From Desulfuromonadaceae bacterium GWB2_53_15 (lineage in GTDB: Bacteria > Desulfobacterota > Desulfuromonadia > Geobacterales > Pseudopelobacteraceae): a stretch of 9,180 nucleotides of DNA. Made by a program: the position numbers and the translations under genes. Under the pieces are notes generated by a model. It ran no database searches, was not told the DNA's origin, and was given only the letters and a program-made list of their open reading frames with translations. This document shows, piece after piece, positions 1-9,180 of the stretch. How positions within the stretch are numbered: position 1 is the stretch's first letter; each line of letters begins with the position of its first letter. The stretch lies in NCBI GenBank assembly GCA_001824455.1, contig MHXL01000067.1:1-9180 (forward strand), read 5' to 3'.

Positions 1-687
1 GACGGGATAGCTTACATCTCCAGTGTAGGAACCGCTGGTGCTAAAGTTTGGGAATTTTGTGAATTTAACTGCAAGCGAGCGTTTACCTGCACTGGTTGCA
101 TGGGCAAATTTATTCGACTCCGCCAGATGATCGGAGTGGCACTTCGGACAGCTTGCCGTGTCACTGCCATAATGCACACCATGTTTTTTACCGTGAGCAC
201 CGTCGTTTGGCGGAGCACCATGACAGCTTGTGCAACTGGTGTCCGCTGGATTGCTTCCCCAGTCAGGACTTGGAGATTCAAAGTGACAGTTGACACTATT
301 GCAGCTCCCTGGCGTAGGGCTGCTGGTTTGGGGCCAGGCCGTGGTTCTGTTGTTGTAGGAAGTTGTTGCAGGTGAATCGTTTATTTTGGTAGAAATCCGT
401 ATATTGCCGTTTCTGTGCGAGGCTGTATAGCCGGCGCTGCCCGGATGGCATGTGGCACAGGTTGCTTGAGTCGCATTGTCACCCATATGGCTGAGATGGT
501 TGCCCTGAAAACCGCCGGTGGATGGATTGCGAAACCAAGTGTCCTGCGGTCGTATGCCACTGGTTTGTGCTCCGTGGCAGCCATTACATGAGAGCGCTGC
601 CTCGGCTATTGTACTTAGCATCATTATGGCAAACAAAACAGCAACACATGTCATTAAAGAAAAGTATTTGTTTCTGGCGCAGATCAA
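1..687 (-). CDS. Secreted multiheme c-type cytochrome, C-terminus beyond the left edge
   Basis: Likely an exported electron-transfer cytochrome acting in the periplasm, outer membrane or outside the cell. The frame is open for 229 codons and runs off the left edge. Residues 1-9 carry R5 and K7, residues 10-28 are hydrophobic, and an A-E-A-A stretch at 28-31 suits signal peptidase cleavage just before the first haem site. Haem-attachment motifs are CNGCH (34-38), CATCH (77-81), CNSVNCH (129-135, the C-x4-CH type), CTSCH (152-156) and CPKCH (180-184). Extra histidines (for example 64, 67, 166, 169, 172) could be distal haem ligands. The C-x4-CH, then W at about 144, then C-x2-CH-G-x-PP spacing resembles the repeated haem domain of large Geobacter cytochromes (TIGR01904 type). 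I chose the TTG start because of its strong ribosome site and the basic residues it adds; the first ATG (codon 12) has neither. Total haem number is unknown because the gene is cut. Family assignment is sure; the exact orthologue is not recognised. Confidence 0.9.
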   Translation of the reverse strand, partial: MICARNKYFSLMTCVAVLFAIMMLSTIAEAALSCNGCHGAQTSGIRPQDTWFRNPSTGGFQGNHLSHMGDNATQATCATCHPGSAGYTASHRNGNIRISTKINDSPATTSYNNRTTAWPQTSSPTPGSCNSVNCHFESPSPDWGSNPADTSCTSCHGAPPNDGAHGKKHGVHYGSDTASCPKCHSDHLAESNKFAHATSAGKRSLAVKFTKFPNFSTSGSYTGDVSYPV

Positions 688-1086: not shown

Positions 1087-4000
1087 TCATGGACGACATA
1101 TGCCGTCTTCGGCAGTGAAGGCCGGGGTGGTGTTGGAAATCCAGGTCCCGGTCGGTGTGCCATCGCTTGTAGTCACCGCCTGGGCCTCGTTGCTGTAGGG
1201 ATTCTGGTTGACAGCACCCGGAGTAGTGATCTTCACATTATCAACCGCTGCCTTGATACTTGTGCCGGGTATTTCGGCTTGGTTGGCCAGATGATAGATG
1301 GCAAGCAACGTCGGGGTCACCACGCCCGGGAGATCATACTTTTTGACCGGTATCCAGGCGCCGCCGCCGGGCGAGGTATAGAAGGTGATGCTGCCGGTGT
1401 TGTCGGTATTGGTCGTTTTCACCATCCGCAACTGTCCTGATATGTCAGCAGTGGCTACAAACGTAAAGTCACTTATCCCGGTCGGCTCGGTTGAGGCGAG
1501 TCGATAGGATTCCAGCGCCGGGTGACTGGTATCGATGATCTGATAGGAATCACCGCTGGCGATCGCGGTGCTGAATGCGGGTGATACTGTAATGCTGCTG
1601 GTGGTATTGGCTGTGATCGGCCTTGTCTGGCCTGCATTTGTGCCGCTGTTCATTTTCAGTGTAAATCCGACCCACTGATTGGCTGTCCACCCCGGCAAGG
1701 TGTCGTTCAGCACGGTTGTTGTGCCGACAATAGAGGCATTGCTGGTAATCGAATTGATGCTGTAGGTGTCGCCACTTGCGATCTGGCTGCCAAAGGCGGT
1801 GGCCACGGAAATGGTGTTGGCCGTGTTGCCGCTGATCAGCCTGGTCTGCCTGTTGCTGGCGCCGGAGGTCATCTGCAGGTAGTAGTTCTTGAACTGGTCT
1901 GTAGTCCAGTTTTTCAAGGAAGTTGCAGTGCCGGTCATTTTCCTGGCATCGGTAAGGCTCTTCTTGTCTGCCGTTCCTGCTGTCGCTGAGCCGCTTTCAA
2001 AAAGCTGGGACTTCTGACGAGCCAGGGTGATGGTGTAATTGGAATCTGCCGGCGAACTGAAACCAAGCCGCAGGATAGCGTAGTAGTTGGTGTTGTTGGA
2101 AGTTGAGCTGATCACGCCGTCCGGCAGGCTGTAATCAAGCTGCATATCAAAGTCAGCCATCAGAGGTGTCAGATTGGAGAGTGACATGAATTCATAGTTG
2201 TAGCCCACGCCGATACCGGAGGCGATGGAGTTGAATTCTACGTTGCCGGCAAGCGACGACAGTTTGGCAGTGCCATTACTGTTGGTTGAAAGCATGACAT
2301 CATTGGCAAAAAGTGCCGCCGTATCCGGCGTTCTCCAGGAATGTCCGACATCAAAGCTCCAGATTGCCGGATTCAGACCGGCATTGAAATCATCCTGGAA
2401 CAGGGTCGGAGTTGTCCCGCCCGCCTTTTTGACCCGGTAGGCATATGGTTTCAGCGGTTCGATCCCAACCTTGTCGGTGTAGTTGAGCAGGTTGCCAACC
2501 GTTGCGATGTTGGCGAAGCTTCCATTCGCCAGCTTCTTCTCGATTTCGAAGCCGCGGATGTCATCGGGAACATTATTCCAGAAGAGCTTGACGGCAAATG
2601 GCCCCTGTGCCACAGCATCCAGATGGATTGTGTCGGAAAAGCTGACGCAGTCCGATGTGGACCAGGCGGTCGGCCAGCCGCAGACAGCACCGGTCTTGAC
2701 AGCCCGTACGCTGTAACAGTGGTTCACCGGCTCGTTGGACGGCTGGATAGTGGCCGTACCTGAAGTCAATGCTGAATTATAGTGTGAGGCAATCTCAGCG
2801 TCGCTCAAGGCGCGGTTGTAGACGCGCACCTCGTCGAGTGATCCTAAGAAGAAGGCATTTGCAATTTGAGTAGTGCCATCGATAGCTGCGCCGATAGTGA
2901 GAGGTTGATTGCTTGTGCCGATGGTTATGGTGGGGGTGGCAACAGCATCAAATGCCGTATCATGTACGCCGTCGAGAATCAGGGAGACAGTACCCGTAGA
3001 TGCCACGTACCTTCCGGCAAGATGATGCCAGTTGTTATCGGTGACCAGTGGCGCGGTAGCCAGAGTTTGAATAGAAACCGGCCCAGCGCTGCCATCCGAC
3101 ACATAGAACCCTAAGCAGTGACTGGCAGTACCTGCAAAAAGTTCATACAATAATTTGTTAGTTGTGTTCCTTTTACTGATAAATCGGAAGTTGGTTATAT
3201 TGGGGAGCGTGGCGCCGGTGTATTTGAACCATGTCTCAACGGTGACATCACCGGTGATGTCGAGTGAACTGCCAGTGGTGTCTGTGACACTGGCATAACT
3301 GCTCGTCCCGTTCAGGCTCATTCCGTTGTCGAATTTTCCCGCCTCGACAACCGAAGCACTGCTGGTAAGTGTGCCTTTCATCCCTTTGCCGCTGACATCG
3401 GCAGTAAAGGCGCCGGTGGTGGTGCCGACAGCTTCATCGAACGGCCAGTACCCTGCCAGGCCGCTGCCAAATACATTGGCAACATTGCTGGCCGAAGTCC
3501 CGTTGGCGTTGCCGTAGTACATATAAACTGCATCGTTTGCACCGGTCTTGACCCATACCGTTGCCGTACCTCCACTAATTTTCTCAACCCAGTAGGGCAG
3601 TTCTACAACCGGGGAAACACCGATATCGTAGAAGCGGATATCGGAAAGGTCTGATTTCACGGCAGTGGTATCGGAAATGGTGACCGTTACCTTTGTGGCA
3701 ATATTGGGCTGGAAGTTGCTAATCGTGACCGGCACCCGCTTGTTCCAGACATTGCCGGCGGCACTGTATGCCGAGGTGTTTGCAGGCACGCTCACATTGA
3801 CGCAAGTGGCCGGGGTACAACCGGTGCAGCAATCCTGTACCTCGAAACCGGTCTCGTCACCGGTATTGTCCAGCCAGGAAATATTCACCCGGTTTGGGAT
3901 CACCTCGGTTGTTGTGAGATTGGAAGGAGACAGGGCTGCAGCGGTCGTGACCGAATTACTGGTATTGCTGTAATATTTGGTAGCATCGCCCCACTGGTTA

Positions 4001-7000
4001 CTGAAACTGAAACAGGGCAGCGGTGTCGAGACAACTTCTGAGTTAAGCGTAATACTTGGTTCAACCGACGCATATTTGCGCACCCGCACCCAATCGTAGT
4101 CAGCGGCGTACAACTGGCCGGGGGTTGCGACGCTTCCCCCAATGATAATAGGCACATTGGATTGTCCGCTGCCAGTGGTGGTAGTAGCATTAGTGTGCGG
4201 TATCCCCCTGTCCAGTTCATCAATGCGATAATTCACGTTAGCTGCATCAATGAGCGCAACCCGGTACAGCAGGTTATCGCTGGTCATGATCTGGGCGTTG
4301 TCCGTATAATTCGGGTCTGCTCCGACAGACATCTTGAAATAGTTCATGGCGGCCTGATAGTAGATGCCTCTGCCCGTAAACAGACTACTTTGATTGGCCG
4401 GCACCCAGGCAATCTTGTACGGCGCGGCGTCAAAACCACCAAAATAGGTATAGTCATTGGGCCACTGGGTTGTCTTGGCCTTGAACTCCAGCATGCTCCC
4501 CGGATTGTACGTTGCATTCGACTTTATCTGCCCGGAGCTGTTGGTGGCGTGCATGTTTCCGCCGGACACGCTCAATCCGGTTGCATTAACAACAGTCCAC
4601 TTTGCGGTGTCGATGGCAGAGCCGTTAAATTCATCGATGAAATCGAACACACTTGATCCATTGGCCGTGCTCGCGGCATGGGTATTGCCGTAGTACATAT
4701 CGATATTGTTGTAGTCGCCAGCCTTTATCCAGACCTTGGCTGTGGGCGGACTGCCGGTCACGCTTTCTACCCAGTAGGACAGTTCCTTCATGGCCGTGGC
4801 ATCGTAAAAACGCAGGTCGCTGAAGTCGGCATTCATCCCGTTCACATAGGCAACAGATACAACCATTGGGAACTGCGCCTGGAAACTTGTGATGCTGAGA
4901 TGTTTGCGCTTGCTCCAGCCATCACCGGGTGCGGCACAACTGCTTGCCAGGCCCCCATCCAGAGAAAGCCCCTTGTTGAGCGCTCTGATGCGATAGCTGT
5001 AGGTAGTATCCGGGCAAGCCGTTGTGTCGGAAAAACTCGTGCTGTTAAGCATCGCCAGGGTCGGGCTTGGCGCGGTTGAGGGCAATGGCTCGAATGTATT
5101 GCCGTTATCCGAGCTGCGTTCAACAGCAAAGCCTGATTCAGCCTGGGTATTGTCGATCCAGGCCAGGTCCACCTGGGTGGTGTTGATCTCCTTGGCCGTG
5201 AGGAGCGTAGGCGTCGCAGTGCCTGTTGTTACCGGAACAGCACTGCTGGTGCTGCTGGTCCAACCGCAAACCCCATCTTTGTAGGCTTCAACCTCGTACT
5301 GATAGGAGGTATTCGGCTGTAGGTTATTTGAGTCCTTAAACGAGGTCACTCCGGCGCCAACCGTGGCAACCTGGGTGAAGTTTGCCGAATTGGTACAGTC
5401 TGCCGGAGGAGCACATCTCAATATCCTGAAACCGGATTCATCTTTGGTAGAGTTGGCCCAGGCAAGATCGATCCTGGTTTCGGACACCTTGCTGGCGGTC
5501 AGGTTGAAGGGATTGGCGGGTACCAGTTGGATCAGATCCAGATTGATCGCATCGACACCGTCGCTGCCGGAGTTGTTGTCCCTCGCTATTCCGCAGATCA
5601 GTTTTGCCCTGGCTGCATCCGCAACCGGCAATTCGGTTTTCAGGGTTATGGACAACGTGAATGGGTACCATAGGTTGTCATTAAATCCGGCGAGATTCTG
5701 TAAAACGGCACTATAGAGACGCTGCTTCTGTTGTATGGATGGATCAAAACCCTGATACCACATTCTGAATGTCGAGCCATCCTTGAACACGCTTGCGCCT
5801 TGTATATGACTGACATCCCCTTTGCCGGCACTGCCGAGACCGAGGCGCCCGTTCGTGCTATTGATGTCGGACATGACCGGAGTGCTGTTGTCCTGTTTGG
5901 TCCAGTTCAGGCCATCGGGCGAGGTCGCATAATAGATACGCCAGATGCCGCTGCCATCGCACCCCGAGTACCACATCCTGTAAGTACTCCCGTCTTTGAT
6001 AACCGACGGATTAAACGTATGGTTACTGTCTCCTTTTCCGGCTGTGCCCAAGGGGATTTGGCCATTGGTGGAAGTAGTATCAGATGCTGCAGGCGGATCA
6101 TTGTTAACTTTTGTCCAGGTCAAACCACCGTCGGACGAGGTGGCCAGATAAATGCGCCAATTCACGCCGTTAGTTCCGGAATACCACATCTTGTAATTTA
6201 AGCCGCCCTCCCATACTACCGATCCCGGACCGGTCCTGACCTGACGGCTGTCCCCCTTGGTACCTTCGGTACCGACAAAGAGACGGCCTCCACCCGGCCC
6301 TGTCCCGGTATCCTGAACAGCGGAAAGCATGTTGTTATTAACCTTAGTCCAATCCTGGCCGTTGGCTGAGGTCGCCATGTAGATGCCGCGCCAGTTCAGG
6401 CCATCATGGCCCGTATACCACATCTTATAGTGTGTTGCGTCCTCCTTGACCACGCTCGGGGTATAGACATGGGCGCCATCACCTTTGCCGAAGCTACCTA
6501 AGGCAAGGCGACCGTTGGCGCTGGAAGTATCGGAGATAGCCGGGACAGTGCTGTCCACCTTGGTCCAATTCAGGGCATCGCTGGAGGTGGCCTGATAGAT
6601 CCGCCAGTTGGCACCGTCCGAAGCCGAATACCACATCTTGTAAGTGTTGTCGCTCTCCTTTATTACACTCGGCAACGCAGCGTGGTAAGTGTCACCGGCC
6701 GTTGCCACTCCCTGGGGCAGGCGACCGTTTGAACCGACCGAATCGGAGCGGTCCGGAATGGTATTGTTCAGCTTGGTCCATGTCTGGCCGCCGTCCGTGG
6801 TGCTGGCGCGGTAGATCCGTGACACTCCCCCCCCGGCAAGTCCCGAATACCACATGGTATATGTGTTCACACCCTCATTGAGCACGAATGGGGCGATCGG
6901 ACCAACGGAATCACCAGTGAAGGGAGTTCCGTTATAGAGTTGATAATTGCCAGAATTAACGTCGGACGCGGCATAGACTGTATTGTTCTGTTTTGTCCAG

Positions 7001-9180
7001 GTCAGGCCATCGGTCGAAGTCGCATAGAATATGCGGTAGTTTCTGGTTTCAGGGTTGCTGATTCCAGACAGATAAAACCCTGTATACCACATCTTATACG
7101 TGCTTCCCTCTTTAAGCACATGGGGATAGGTTGCGTATAAGCTGTCTCCCTTGGTGCTGTTGCCTAGCGGAATCCGGCCGTTGGTACCGGTGGTGTCCGA
7201 AACCGCCAAAATGGTGTTGTCCTGCTTGGTCCAGGTCAGGCCGTCCGGTGAAGTGGCGTAGAAGATGCGCCACCAGGTGCTGGCATCGGCTCCGGCATAC
7301 CACATCTTGTATGTTGCGCCATCCTTTATGACTGTGGGGGCAAATGTGCCGTTGCTGTCCCCTTTTCCGGCTGACCCAAGCGGGATGCGGCCGTTGGTTC
7401 CGGGGGTGCCGTCGGAGTCAGAAACAGGTGGAACCGAATTATCGTATTTGGTCCAGTTGAGGCCATCCGGGGATGTGGCGTAATAGATACGCCAGTTGGA
7501 ACGGTCATATCCCGAATACCACATCTTGTAAAGACCAGCGGCGGAATCCCATAGCACGCTGGGCGACATATAGACATGCAGGCGGTCGCCGATACCGGCC
7601 ACATCGCTGCCAAGCCCAAGCCTGCCGTTGTTGTTGACTGGAACGGCCCCGGTGTCCTGGATTGGCGGCAAGGTGGTGGCAACTTTGTTCCAGGTCAAGC
7701 CGCTATCGGCCGAGGTAGCGTGATAGATGCGCCAACTGCCGCTGGCCCCATGATCGTTGCCGGAGTACCACATCCTGTAATTGGTGGCATCATCCTTGAT
7801 TACTGACGCGCCCTGGATCGACCCGGTGTCTCCCCTGTCCGTCGGGGTGCCGTAAGGACTGGTGGCTAGCCCCACGTTTCCGCTGGAGATGCCGACCGGA
7901 ATGCGGCCGTCGGTGGAGGTGGTGTCGGAACCGGCCGGTATGCTGTTGTTTGTCTTGTTCCAGATGATAGCCGATGGCGAAGCAATTGCGTATTCCGCCA
8001 GCGGATAATCTGATGAGCCATTGTTGGCTGCCAGTCGGCAGAAGGCATAGCCGTTGGCCAGGCTGGCCTTGATGTTGCCGGTCAATGTGTAGCTGCCGCC
8101 CGGAGTCAATTGCGGCAGAGTCATACTGACCGTTTCGGATGTATTCAGAGCCAGCGATTTGGATATCTTGAGACTCTTGAGACCACTGACAGCGGTTGTG
8201 ATGTCGTCCGAGGCGCCGCTACCCACGGTCCACTTCTCCGTACCACCCTCAAAGTCGGCGTTGCTGATCAGGTTGGCGACCTGCGGTGTTGTCAGCGTAA
8301 CCGTATTGGAGTAGGAGCTGCCCCAGTTGTTCAGAAACTGGTAGGCTTCCGGGGCTGAGTCCTGGTTGACTCCGATGGCGTCAGACAGGACAACCGGTTC
8401 TGTTGATGCGTATTTGCGGGCGCGAACCCAGTCGATTGTCATGGTGTCGATTGTTTCGCCGGCCGAATTGGAACCCTTGAAATATCCCAGCCAGAGATAG
8501 GGGCTGCTGCTCCAGCCGCCGGGTGCCGTAAATCGTTTCAGCACGGAATAACCGGCATCCTTGATCAGGTATTCCAGCTTGCCATCCGGGTTGAATTCAA
8601 TACCGACCATCCCGTCGTTAATGGGGCTGTAGCCTGTAATCCCCGGCTTGACCTGGGTTACGTCGATATATTCATCCAATACACCTCTGGTATACAGACT
8701 GGTATAGATGCCGGAGGTGGGTGTTATGGCCGTCCATGTCCCGGGCTCAGTCCTGTTATACACCCTGACGACGGATTGTCCGCTGGCATTAAAGACATAG
8801 GAGTCACTCCAACCGCCGTCTCCTGTCTTTCCCTTCACGTAGATATCGGTGATGTTAGAGCCGTCCGGCATGGACCATAAGCTGCCAGCAGGCTTTCGCA
8901 GGGTATTGTTTAACCCGTTGCTTGGGTTGTACAGGGCGCTGCCGGTGCTTGTTACCGAACCAGGTGACACCAGGTTGTAGCGATTGGCCGGGTCTGTGCC
9001 GGTTCCGTCGGCACCATAGGGGAAGAGTGTTGTAGCGGCAGCATCCGCATCGATCAGATACGCCAGCCTGTTGTTGTTGCCGTTCATGGAGTAGGTGCCG
9101 GATGCATCTGCCATTGCCAGACCGCCATAGGCGCCATTGGCTACGCTCTGCCAGCTGCCCTTCATCTCAAACCTCAGGTT
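1087..9180 (-). CDS. Giant modular surface protein with nested FN3, DUF2341, LamG and propeller domains, N-terminus beyond the right edge
   Basis: A single open frame of 2,697 codons ends at TGA (1089-1087) and is still open at the right edge. Residues below count from the ATG at 9165, which is probably internal: it begins no signal peptide and the upstream residues NLRFE read like a beta strand. Order: concanavalin-like tail ending DWVRARKYAS (245-254); jelly-roll first half (about 300-396); ten-motif propeller array (about 397-1157); jelly-roll second half (1158-1215); FN3 (1216-1314); FN3 (1319-1411) whose tail reappears at 1716-1742 after a DUF2341-concanavalin insert; FN3 (1744-1800 plus 2136-2175) split by DUF2341-LamG; FN3 (2180-2248 plus 2653-2666) split by a concanavalin-like domain with a twin module. 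There is no membrane helix, haem motif, or PEP-CTERM or LPXTG-type tail at the C-terminus. These families suggest a secreted or surface-attached adhesin or glycan binder; no enzyme activity is indicated. The gene is recognised by domains only, not as a named protein. Confidence 0.9.
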   Translation of the reverse strand, partial: NLRFEMKGSWQSVANGAYGGLAMADASGTYSMNGNNNRLAYLIDADAAATTLFPYGADGTGTDPANRYNLVSPGSVTSTGSALYNPSNGLNNTLRKPAGSLWSMPDGSNITDIYVKGKTGDGGWSDSYVFNASGQSVVRVYNRTEPGTWTAITPTSGIYTSLYTRGVLDEYIDVTQVKPGITGYSPINDGMVGIEFNPDGKLEYLIKDAGYSVLKRFTAPGGWSSSPYLWLGYFKGSNSAGETIDTMTIDWVRARKYASTEPVVLSDAIGVNQDSAPEAYQFLNNWGSSYSNTVTLTTPQVANLISNADFEGGTEKWTVGSGASDDITTAVSGLKSLKISKSLALNTSETVSMTLPQLTPGGSYTLTGNIKASLANGYAFCRLAANNGSSDYPLAEYAIASPSAIIWNKTNNSIPAGSDTTSTDGRIPVGISSGNVGLATSPYGTPTDRGDTGSIQGASVIKDDATNYRMWYSGNDHGASGSWRIYHATSADSGLTWNKVATTLPPIQDTGAVPVNNNGRLGLGSDVAGIGDRLHVYMSPSVLWDSAAGLYKMWYSGYDRSNWRIYYATSPDGLNWTKYDNSVPPVSDSDGTPGTNGRIPLGSAGKGDSNGTFAPTVIKDGATYKMWYAGADASTWWRIFYATSPDGLTWTKQDNTILAVSDTTGTNGRIPLGNSTKGDSLYATYPHVLKEGSTYKMWYTGFYLSGISNPETRNYRIFYATSTDGLTWTKQNNTVYAASDVNSGNYQLYNGTPFTGDSVGPIAPFVLNEGVNTYTMWYSGLAGGGVSRIYRASTTDGGQTWTKLNNTIPDRSDSVGSNGRLPQGVATAGDTYHAALPSVIKESDNTYKMWYSASDGANWRIYQATSSDALNWTKVDSTVPAISDTSSANGRLALGSFGKGDGAHVYTPSVVKEDATHYKMWYTGHDGLNWRGIYMATSANGQDWTKVNNNMLSAVQDTGTGPGGGRLFVGTEGTKGDSRQVRTGPGSVVWEGGLNYKMWYSGTNGVNWRIYLATSSDGGLTWTKVNNDPPAASDTTSTNGQIPLGTAGKGDSNHTFNPSVIKDGSTYRMWYSGCDGSGIWRIYYATSPDGLNWTKQDNSTPVMSDINSTNGRLGLGSAGKGDVSHIQGASVFKDGSTFRMWYQGFDPSIQQKQRLYSAVLQNLAGFNDNLWYPFTLSITLKTELPVADAARAKLICGIARDNNSGSDGVDAINLDLIQLVPANPFNLTASKVSETRIDLAWANSTKDESGFRILRCAPPADCTNSANFTQVATVGAGVTSFKDSNNLQPNTSYQYEVEAYKDGVCGWTSSTSSAVPVTTGTATPTLLTAKEINTTQVDLAWIDNTQAESGFAVERSSDNGNTFEPLPSTAPSPTLAMLNSTSFSDTTACPDTTYSYRIRALNKGLSLDGGLASSCAAPGDGWSKRKHLSITSFQAQFPMVVSVAYVNGMNADFSDLRFYDATAMKELSYWVESVTGSPPTAKVWIKAGDYNNIDMYYGNTHAASTANGSSVFDFIDEFNGSAIDTAKWTVVNATGLSVSGGNMHATNSSGQIKSNATYNPGSMLEFKAKTTQWPNDYTYFGGFDAAPYKIAWVPANQSSLFTGRGIYYQAAMNYFKMSVGADPNYTDNAQIMTSDNLLYRVALIDAANVNYRIDELDRGIPHTNATTTTGSGQSNVPIIIGGSVATPGQLYAADYDWVRVRKYASVEPSITLNSEVVSTPLPCFSFSNQWGDATKYYSNTSNSVTTAAALSPSNLTTTEVIPNRVNISWLDNTGDETGFEVQDCCTGCTPATCVNVSVPANTSAYSAAGNVWNKRVPVTISNFQPNIATKVTVTISDTTAVKSDLSDIRFYDIGVSPVVELPYWVEKISGGTATVWVKTGANDAVYMYYGNANGTSASNVANVFGSGLAGYWPFDEAVGTTTGAFTADVSGKGMKGTLTSSASVVEAGKFDNGMSLNGTSSYASVTDTTGSSLDITGDVTVETWFKYTGATLPNITNFRFISKRNTTNKLLYELFAGTASHCLGFYVSDGSAGPVSIQTLATAPLVTDNNWHHLAGRYVASTGTVSLILDGVHDTAFDAVATPTITIGTSNQPLTIGAAIDGTTQIANAFFLGSLDEVRVYNRALSDAEIASHYNSALTSGTATIQPSNEPVNHCYSVRAVKTGAVCGWPTAWSTSDCVSFSDTIHLDAVAQGPFAVKLFWNNVPDDIRGFEIEKKLANGSFANIATVGNLLNYTDKVGIEPLKPYAYRVKKAGGTTPTLFQDDFNAGLNPAIWSFDVGHSWRTPDTAALFANDVMLSTNSNGTAKLSSLAGNVEFNSIASGIGVGYNYEFMSLSNLTPLMADFDMQLDYSLPDGVISSTSNNTNYYAILRLGFSSPADSNYTITLARQKSQLFESGSATAGTADKKSLTDARKMTGTATSLKNWTTDQFKNYYLQMTSGASNRQTRLISGNTANTISVATAFGSQIASGDTYSINSITSNASIVGTTTVLNDTLPGWTANQWVGFTLKMNSGTNAGQTRPITANTTSSITVSPAFSTAIASGDSYQIIDTSHPALESYRLASTEPTGISDFTFVATADISGQLRMVKTTNTDNTGSITFYTSPGGGAWIPVKKYDLPGVVTPTLLAIYHLANQAEIPGTSIKAAVDNVKITTPGAVNQNPYSNEAQAVTTSDGTPTGTWISNTTPAFTAEDGICRP
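1211..2403 (-). other. C-terminal concanavalin-like domain inserted in the last FN3
   Basis: FQDDFNAGLNPAIWSFD (from 2256) is a typical opening of a concanavalin-like lectin/glucanase domain, and AVDNVKI (2640-2646) is its usual closing strand. At about 390 residues it is longer than usual because a pair of short modules (about 2412-2541) lies inside it. It sits between YAYRVKKA and NQNPYSNEAQAVTT, which together look like the two final strands of one FN3 domain. Confidence 0.7.
1531..1932 (-). repeat. Tandem pair of a short GQTR/IASGD module
   Basis: Two copies align without gaps over 52 residues, with 24 identities by my count. Each reads W-T-x2-Q, L-x-M-x-SG, QTR-x-I, NT-x3-I-x-V, AF-x3-IASGD-x-Y-x-I. 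The tryptophans are at 2420 and 2493, 73 residues apart. Similar W-x-NQ / GQ-R-I / DSY modules are familiar to me from phage tail and other structural proteins. The duplicate sits inside the last concanavalin-like domain, presumably in a surface loop. Confidence 0.7.
2776..3753 (-). other. DUF2341 plus LamG domain, second copy
   Basis: W-N-K-R (1807-1810), DIRFYD, ELPYWVE, A-T-VWVKTG and VYMYYGN mark DUF2341. LamG follows, with GYWPFDE (about 1905), VTVETWFKY, NNWHHLAGRY, LILDGV and LDEVRVYNRALSDAEI (2110-2125), all standard strands of the LamG/Laminin_G_3 fold. Unlike copy one, the partner here is a LamG domain and not the DWVR-ending sandwich. Confidence 0.85.
4057..4923 (-). other. DUF2341 plus concanavalin-like domain, first copy
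   Basis: DUF2341 signatures in order are W-S-K-R-K-H (from 1417), DLRFYD, L-S-YWVE, A-K-VWIKAG and DMYYGN, followed by VFDFIDEFNG (1511), which opens a concanavalin-like beta sandwich closing at DWVRVRKYAS (1691-1700). This pairing is common in large surface proteins of bacteria and archaea and is generally thought to bind glycans or polymers. Confidence 0.75.
5521..8268 (-). other. Jelly-roll (CBM4_9-like) domain split by a propeller array
   Basis: Residues 300-396 begin with NADFEGG-x3-W and continue with strands typical of a carbohydrate-binding jelly roll (a PGGSYTLTGNIKAS-like strand). The expected closing strands, a W-x-x-FT strand and an NLDLIQL strand, appear only at about 1168-1215, after the propeller repeats. 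The two parts together make one domain of about 155 residues. The split is inferred from motif order, not from a structure. Confidence 0.6.
5695..7980 (-). repeat. Ten-motif beta-propeller repeat array (Asp-box / GH43-like)
   Basis: The motif Y-[KR]-MWY-[SAT]-G, then WRIYYATS and DG-x-[TN]-W-[TN]-K, recurs with M at residues 465, 548, 621, 692, 771, 844, 915, 993, 1064 and 1135, a spacing of 71-83 residues (213-249 bp). Between motifs comes SDT-x2-TNGRIPLG, then KGD, then a [VH]-[IVL]-[KN]-[DE]-G-x-[TN] strand. Several units carry the S-x-D-x-G-x-T-W Asp-box of BNR/sialidase propellers. The MWY-SG and ATS-DG-W text also recalls five-bladed GH43/GH32-type propellers. The first unit begins with only its W-N-K part and the last lacks it, as expected if blades are closed by N- and C-terminal strands. 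No catalytic triad is evident. Confidence 0.85.
8392..9180 (-). other. Concanavalin-like domain, C-terminal part, at the right edge
   Basis: The segment ends in DWVRARKYASTEP (from residue 245), almost the same as DWVRVRKYASVEP at 1691-1703, where it closes a DUF2341-associated concanavalin-like domain. By analogy a DUF2341 domain may lie just outside the window. The first 120 residues match nothing I can name. Confidence 0.5.

Follow-up and report, generated by a model that had tools for sequence, protein, structure and literature searches.

The stretch of DNA analysed here, which we call the window, covers bases 1-9180 of contig 67 in a draft metagenome-assembled genome (MAG) of Desulfuromonadaceae bacterium GWB2_53_15 (Geobacterales; 1.83 Mb in 189 contigs, 52% complete), and its 9,180 nucleotides are largely occupied by one minus-strand frame (9180..1087, 2697 codons, no stop) that encodes part of a giant protein. 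This protein is a row of hosts, one jelly roll and four fibronectin type III (FN3) domains that we name A to D, and four of the five hosts carry guests: the jelly roll holds a ten-repeat propeller, FN3-B holds DUF2341 plus a concanavalin-like (ConA) domain in its FG loop, FN3-C holds DUF2341 plus LamG in its EF loop, and FN3-D holds in its FG loop a ConA-like guest that itself contains two modules of about 53 residues. We consider it very probable that the jelly roll and three of the four FN3s are split around guests larger than themselves, and that this layout arose by repeated insertion into host loops; one of the splits is a predicted one, drawn from a structural model together with relatives. 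A sequence-only reading of the window had noted the order of motifs and proposed nesting in at least four domains. The motifs do lie in that order in a single open frame, with Pfam matches to DUF2341, Laminin_G_3 and fn3, and the nesting is borne out, best for FN3-C, FN3-D and the jelly roll, which have unbroken counterparts in relatives and align across the cut, and slightly less well for FN3-B, whose last strand is short (p=0.063) but which is closed in a predicted model. The 5’ end of the protein is lost, the frame running through a 139-base run of N, which starts at the window end, to the end of the contig. The features are as follows.

8389..9180, minus strand: ConA-like guest, C-terminal part (residues 1-264); our in-house ConA profile recognises residues 227-264 only, and the upstream part is cut by the N run
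8284..8319, minus strand: FN3 G-strand-like segment (residues 288-299) after this N-terminal ConA-like guest, motif SSYSNTVTLTTP found by eye; the first part of its host would sit beyond the gap
7975..8274, minus strand: jelly roll (CBM_4_9-like), first part (residues 303-402), from Pfam and alignment with relatives
5695..7974, minus strand: propeller guest, GH43/GH130-like (residues 403-1162), ten repeats of about 72 residues, as nine whole and two end pieces
5509..5694, minus strand: jelly roll, second part (residues 1163-1224), from alignment with relatives
5227..5511, minus strand: FN3-A, uninterrupted (residues 1224-1318), from the family FN3 profile
4966..5211, minus strand: FN3-B strands A-F (residues 1324-1405, profile columns 2-77), from the family FN3 profile and predicted model
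4684..4917, minus strand: DUF2341 guest in FN3-B (residues 1422-1499), from Pfam and family profile
4054..4647, minus strand: ConA-like guest in FN3-B (residues 1512-1709), from the family profile
3937..3972, minus strand: FN3-B last strand G, after the guest (residues 1737-1748), p=0.063 and predicted model
3751..3927, minus strand: FN3-C strands A-E (residues 1752-1810, columns 2-60), from the family FN3 profile
3508..3747, minus strand: DUF2341 guest in FN3-C (residues 1812-1891), from Pfam and family profile
2779..3462, minus strand: LamG guest in FN3-C (residues 1907-2134), from Pfam and family profile
2635..2739, minus strand: FN3-C strands F-G, after the guest (residues 2148-2182, columns 64-89), from family profile, split alignment and relatives
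2425..2622, minus strand: FN3-D strands A-F (residues 2187-2252, columns 5-72), from the family FN3 profile
1954..2415, minus strand: ConA-like guest of FN3-D, first part (residues 2256-2409), from profile and predicted model
1762..1920, minus strand: third-level module 1 in the FN3-D guest (residues 2421-2473), from the module profile
1543..1695, minus strand: third-level module 2 in the FN3-D guest (residues 2496-2546), from the module profile
1222..1518, minus strand: ConA-like guest of FN3-D, second part (residues 2555-2653), from profile and predicted model
1156..1218, minus strand: FN3-D last strand, after the guest (residues 2655-2675), p=0.003 and relatives
1090..1155, minus strand: C-terminal tail TPAF...C (residues 2676-2697), from family comparison
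1..687, minus strand: next gene, same strand, incomplete, a multihaem c-type cytochrome (CxxxxCH/CxxCH; TIGR01904, 39.9 bits against a cut-off of 27)

The strongest evidence for nesting comes from sequence comparison, in which the same hosts appear unbroken in relatives. A search that scored 7983 candidates (120 of 145 matches listed) returned, as the top-scoring named relative among the matches listed, P0002, a 4433-residue ‘Fibronectin, type III domain protein’ of Geotalea uraniireducens Rf4, while a scan of genome contigs yielded a single distant locus. The survey started from 46 rows (the window, C65, 16 genome frames, P0001-P0026, P0038 and P0093), and removal of three exact duplicates, one near-duplicate and five rows without FN3 matches left 37 proteins, 32 of which were comparable in a tree (C65, G051, P0013, G041 and G063c were excluded for a contig end or a long C-terminal extension). 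FN3-D, tail TPA[FYW]...C included, has no break in 25 of the 32, typically reading ...YRVRAFRGxDxSPYSNEAxxTTPAF, and the window's guest is inserted between YRVKKAGG and QNPYSNEAQAVTT. In five aligned relatives FN3-C reads approximately CYRVxAxKTxxCxxWxxxYSxxxC, and the window shows HCYSVRAVKTGAVCGWPTAWSTSDC shortly after LamG. The FG loop of FN3-B is uninterrupted in G063b, G050 and P0021, which carry a different insert in the C'E loop. Unbroken jelly rolls precede FN3-A in ten family proteins, and the joined jelly roll of the window aligns over its full length with those of G030, G050, P0020 and P0021 (47-65 bits, against 30-52 for the first half alone). The window junctions agree with the unbroken hosts to within a few residues.

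Among the 32 comparable proteins the guests turn over. Host A is filled in none (a host is called ‘empty’ when no profile-recognised guest lies in a gap of more than 60 residues; an insert lacking a known profile was encountered once, in FN3-B of G063b), host C in four, with four different guest/loop combinations, and host D in seven. Going by the profiles, no other of the 37 proteins has a propeller inside the jelly roll, fills the EF loop of FN3-C or carries modules within the guest of FN3-D, as the window does. In P0017 and P0023 the guest in the FG loop of FN3-B is DUF2341 with a five-repeat propeller-like domain in place of ConA. That one and the same host is filled in some proteins and empty in others supports the suggestion, made from the sequence alone, of an evolutionary route by insertion. 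The nesting could instead be ancestral, the hosts having been born split and the ‘empty’ relatives having lost their guests. Loss is possible for any single host, and the DUF2341+ConA guest of FN3-B is found in most of the 32 proteins, so that this guest may be old. We nevertheless find general ancestry unlikely: a tree built from hosts only needs four changes for C and four for D, with well-supported branches forcing at least two for D, and losses alone are insufficient because different guests occupy different loops of one host. A single clade of filled FN3-D hosts was also considered and rejected, the best tree needing those four changes, although the placement of the long row P0093 is unsure.

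Since whole-protein Pfam and NCBIfam scans list the best stretch only and could not show splits, we built family profiles. On the whole protein, Pfam gave 109.6 bits for DUF2341 (PF10102; cut-off 23.4, two stretches), 76.8 for Laminin_G_3 (PF13385; cut-off 27.6) and 57 for fn3. The family FN3 profile (92 columns, from 218 uninterrupted FN3s of the family) finds FN3-A whole (1224-1318, 92.6 bits) and gives two complementary matches for FN3-C, columns 2-60 (1752-1810) and 64-89 (2152-2179), with DUF2341 and LamG between them; the first parts of FN3-B and FN3-D end at columns 77 (1324-1405) and 72 (2187-2252). In a split-alignment test with 60 shuffles, joined FN3-C scored 84.0 against a shuffled maximum of 77.2, and uninterrupted FN3-A showed zero gain, as expected of an unbroken domain. 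The segments after the guests of FN3-B and FN3-D are short; a test restricted to the residues from the guest up to the following host (300 shuffles) gave p=0.003 for FN3-D.

The same pattern recurs through the family, in which the proteins are related and the counts are not independent cases. The 37 proteins contain 356 uninterrupted FN3s, and in 111 cases an FN3 first part is followed by a guest. In 25 of the 111 the profile recovers both halves around the guest (24 in the C'E loop and one, FN3-C of the window, in the EF loop), compared with 0/111 at the same score in each of five rounds in which the 500 downstream residues were shuffled. The remaining 86 are cut near the FG loop, and a G-strand-like segment follows the guest in 56 of them at p<0.05 and in 44 at p<0.01, where about 4/86 would be expected by chance at p<0.05. 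Two guests are present at once in five hosts, where LamG occupies the C'E loop and DUF2341+ConA the FG loop; in a Geotalea uraniireducens frame (L062, from residues 3496-3753 on) a single FN3 is cut twice in this way. Taken whole, the insert is longer than the 92-column host in 110 of the 111 cases, with medians of 212 residues (C'E/EF) and 289.5 residues (FG), bearing in mind that an insert may comprise two domains and that DUF2341 alone (77 columns) is smaller than the host; 18 inserts made of LamG only span 179-237 residues and thus exceed the host.

Structure prediction, which the sequence-only reading had proposed as a check, was informative for one host. In a model of low confidence, each of the 50 Protein Data Bank (PDB) matches listed has FN3-B closing around the guest, through model residues ~421-431. 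For FN3-D, closure of the host was not shown, as the 50 PDB matches listed all cover the guest and none the host; the matches listed for this ConA-like guest include GH43 side domains and lectins. Folding alignments for the combined C+D, jelly roll+propeller and B+C mixed rows were dropped when MAFFT misplaced the repeated domains, and a search of solved structures by sequence gave no match for the FN3-B+C region.

Several results weigh against nesting of this extent. The split-alignment test was passed cleanly by FN3-C alone: joined FN3-D scored 54.2, below its null maximum of 61.3, and FN3-B reached 98.8 against 98.4 only by borrowing a piece of FN3-C, while its last strand gave p=0.063 in the post-guest test (300 shuffles). 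A second proposed check, hidden Markov model (HMM) searches with joined halves, came out weak with general Pfam profiles. Joined FN3-B rose from 24.2 to 26.3 bits, past the cut-off of 25, whereas FN3-D went from no match to 12.9 bits and FN3-C from 14.3 to 14.4 (13.3 for a mismatched decoy join), both below the cut-off; for the jelly roll, CBM_4_9 (PF02018, cut-off 25.9) gave 28.5 bits for the first half and 27.1 joined, both matches covering the same stretch, profile positions 1-74 of 136. In the family, 43 further partial FN3 matches were left unclassed, and in 30 of the 86 FG-type splits the strand after the guest is not significant at 0.05. The two predicted models are poor overall (mean predicted local distance difference test score, pLDDT, 50.8 and 46.7), and the FN3-D last strand sits in a stretch with pLDDT under 50. 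The guest set of the window, taken as a whole, is absent from every other protein compared, and comes from a MAG only 52% complete.

These points lend some weight to a beads-on-a-string arrangement, in which the FN3s before the guests are six-stranded, degenerate and self-closing, and the segments that follow the guests serve as linkers. The first parts of FN3-B and FN3-D do score alone, the pieces after the guests are merely ~12-20 residues long, joined FN3-D fails the split alignment and both models are of low confidence. Such an arrangement does not explain the second half of FN3-C, where 28 residues match complementary columns, or its family-specific CYxVxAxKTxxCGW pattern, nor the excess of G-strand matches across the family, the unbroken hosts in relatives and the closure of FN3-B in the model, and we regard it as less likely still than ancestral splitting. 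Misjoining of repeats in a fragmented MAG, mimicking nests, is very improbable despite the many contigs, the N run and the abundant repeats, given that a single stop-free frame passes through every junction, that the same kinds of nest occur in other assemblies, including a Geotalea uraniireducens contig of 5,136,364 bases, that the junctions match the unbroken hosts so closely and that five junction pairs have no shared sequence above chance.

The third level of nesting, proposed from the duplicated module in the FN3-D guest, is also supported: guests of relatives lack the module or have more of them. The module profile finds none in the FN3-D guests of P0002, P0003, P0093, G100 and G084a, two at one site in the window, and sets of three and of two at separate sites in P0122, a partial protein outside the 37-protein set that likewise has modules in its FN3-D guest. 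On contig 65 of the same genome (L008, residues 520-1658), the module-hosting ConA-like domain is also split by a DUF2341+ConA cassette, with five modules before the cassette and three after; the window copy is unbroken at that point. In the same frame past the window end (L007, 9361-10635, minus strand), DUF2341 is split around a complete DUF2341+LamG, a cassette nested in itself: the outer DUF2341 (columns 1-56, 60 bits) is completed by VWIRTGQFNSIAMYYGN (an over-extended match to column 77, 16.1 bits), and the inner DUF2341 and LamG score 102 and 204 bits. An automatic search for further split DUF2341, LamG, jelly-roll and ConA hosts found none, under limits that also missed the plain split DUF2341 of L007.

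The propeller of the window, used as a query, matched two of the 141 genomes of the order at E<=1e-10, the source genome and G004 of the same genus. We rejected the idea that the two propellers are sister copies: their hosts differ (the jelly roll versus an FN3-B loop beside LamG), and seven of the nine whole window blades are nearest to blades of other proteins and two to those of G004. Because of the different hosts and this blade comparison, a single acquisition is unsupported. A LamG in G004 split by its propeller was rejected too, the piece before the propeller scoring -2.2 bits. By eye, the G004 propeller (L035) is flanked by two similar stretches (SGL...GPNIxAGTTI-like; frame residues 4066-4130 and 4550-4610), which could mark how it was inserted. 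The ten window repeats (5695-7974) are evenly spaced, without a linker, and G004 and P0001 have 5-blade sets; the ten may make up a pair of adjoining 5-blade propellers or a single 10-blade one. Glyco_hydro_130 (PF04041) reached 27.2 bits, barely above its cut-off of 26, with no stretch passing alone, NCBIfam enzyme models fell far under their cut-offs on the window protein (24.2 vs 550), and among solved structures a sequence search matched one weakly, 4onz_A (E=0.0029). A propeller fold is likely for this GH43/GH130-like region, and an enzyme is not supported.

How guests enter their hosts left little trace in the window. At five junction pairs the longest shared stretch is 5-7 bases (null mean 6.7, 95% point 9), so target duplication was rejected, as was a step in base composition at the guest borders, with GC content at 0.52-0.57 in 13 of 14 parts and 0.61 in the short C-terminal tail. 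With neither a junction signal nor a clear composition step, insertion was ancient, precise or both; one possible route is homologous recombination between repeats. A broader proposal, which we find evenly balanced between belief and doubt, is that the FN3 backbone is conserved and offers standing loop sockets, and that the same hosts of these Geobacterales giant surface proteins repeatedly take large portable cassettes (DUF2341 with ConA, LamG or propeller) into three defined loops, recursively and with DUF2341 even entering DUF2341, which would diversify the surface through nesting instead of stringing. If true, inserts larger than their hosts would contradict the rule of thumb that the insert is the smaller partner.

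In an FN3 sandwich the FG loop lies at one end and the EF and C'E loops at the other, and the ends of a guest would lie close together. Because of these positions, guests would stick out sideways: the FN3 row would form a secreted rod, and each guest (ConA, LamG or GH43-like propeller) would project from it with the rod unbroken. The branched shape proposed from the sequence alone is thus something we infer from loop positions. The guests have sugar-binding-like folds (LamG, ConA-like, GH43/GH130-like propeller), one host is a CBM-like jelly roll, and the guests may bind polysaccharide or surfaces. Secretion of the giants is suggested by a signal-peptide-like N-terminal stretch of P0002, seen by eye. 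In 11 of the 13 family loci with flanking sequence the giant has multihaem genes next to it or fused to it, a count given without an estimate of chance adjacency, and the two loci without such a gene are also without upstream sequence. At one locus (L039, in G038, 1836-10619) six CxxCH haem motifs share the reading frame of a giant FN3/DUF2341 protein, and some of them lie near its N-terminus. A Cys lies in the last five residues of 31 of the 37 family proteins, mostly after a TPA[FYW]-like sequence, and is a possible anchoring, sorting or cross-link signal. Judged from its sequence, the protein may be a secreted adhesive rod or matrix scaffold that displays lectin-like domains beside multihaem cytochromes, acting for Geobacterales cells with the adjacent-encoded extracellular cytochromes.

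The FG loop of FN3 is known to accept foreign sequence in engineered monobodies; those carry engineered short loops, whereas the window has natural inserts of about 300 residues. The closest likenesses are other Geobacterales giants such as P0002, whose host row B-D, DUF2341+ConA/LamG guests and Cys-ending tail resemble those of the window. Passages of a study of RTX adhesins (FrhA, MpIBP and one of Aeromonas veronii; PMC10865825) describe split Ig-like domains that orient ligand-binding domains outward, and, going by those passages, they share with the proposed giant a surface rod bearing a small Ig-like host that is split around, or supports, a projected ligand-binding domain. The giant differs in that its hosts are FN3s and a jelly roll in a row, its guests are ConA, LamG, propeller and DUF2341, and there are several nests, up to three levels deep. 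No RTX type is among the six Pfam families listed for the window protein, no search having been aimed at RTX repeats or type I secretion. We do not claim membership in the split-domain RTX adhesins; the split host is supported, and display would follow by analogy. Passages of a census of 48,551 insertion events report that the inserted domain was smaller than its host in 77% (median 115 vs 199 residues), and that recursive A1-B-A2 nesting reaches six levels in RNA polymerase (PMC13114784). The giants share the A1-B-A2 layout described there but have whole inserts larger than the host in 110 of 111 cases, and turnover between relatives. A ‘Fibronectin type III domain protein’ of Geobacter sulfurreducens, GSU1945, is mentioned among regulated genes in part of another study (PMC10599522). 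In the open-licence literature our search terms found no report that deals with these giants or describes FN3 as a natural host used repeatedly.

Nested domains, then, are already known; what is unusual here is that the inserts are larger than their hosts, that nesting is repeated along one chain and that guests turn over between relatives. Within one family a given host can be seen without a guest, with one and with two, the guests and loops differing, and the family therefore makes gain rates, loop preference and size limits of natural domain insertion directly testable. It is also evidence from nature that an FN3 can take inserts several times its own size into its FG, EF and C'E loops, and it suggests a way in which bacteria such as Geobacterales may build bristled surface fibres.
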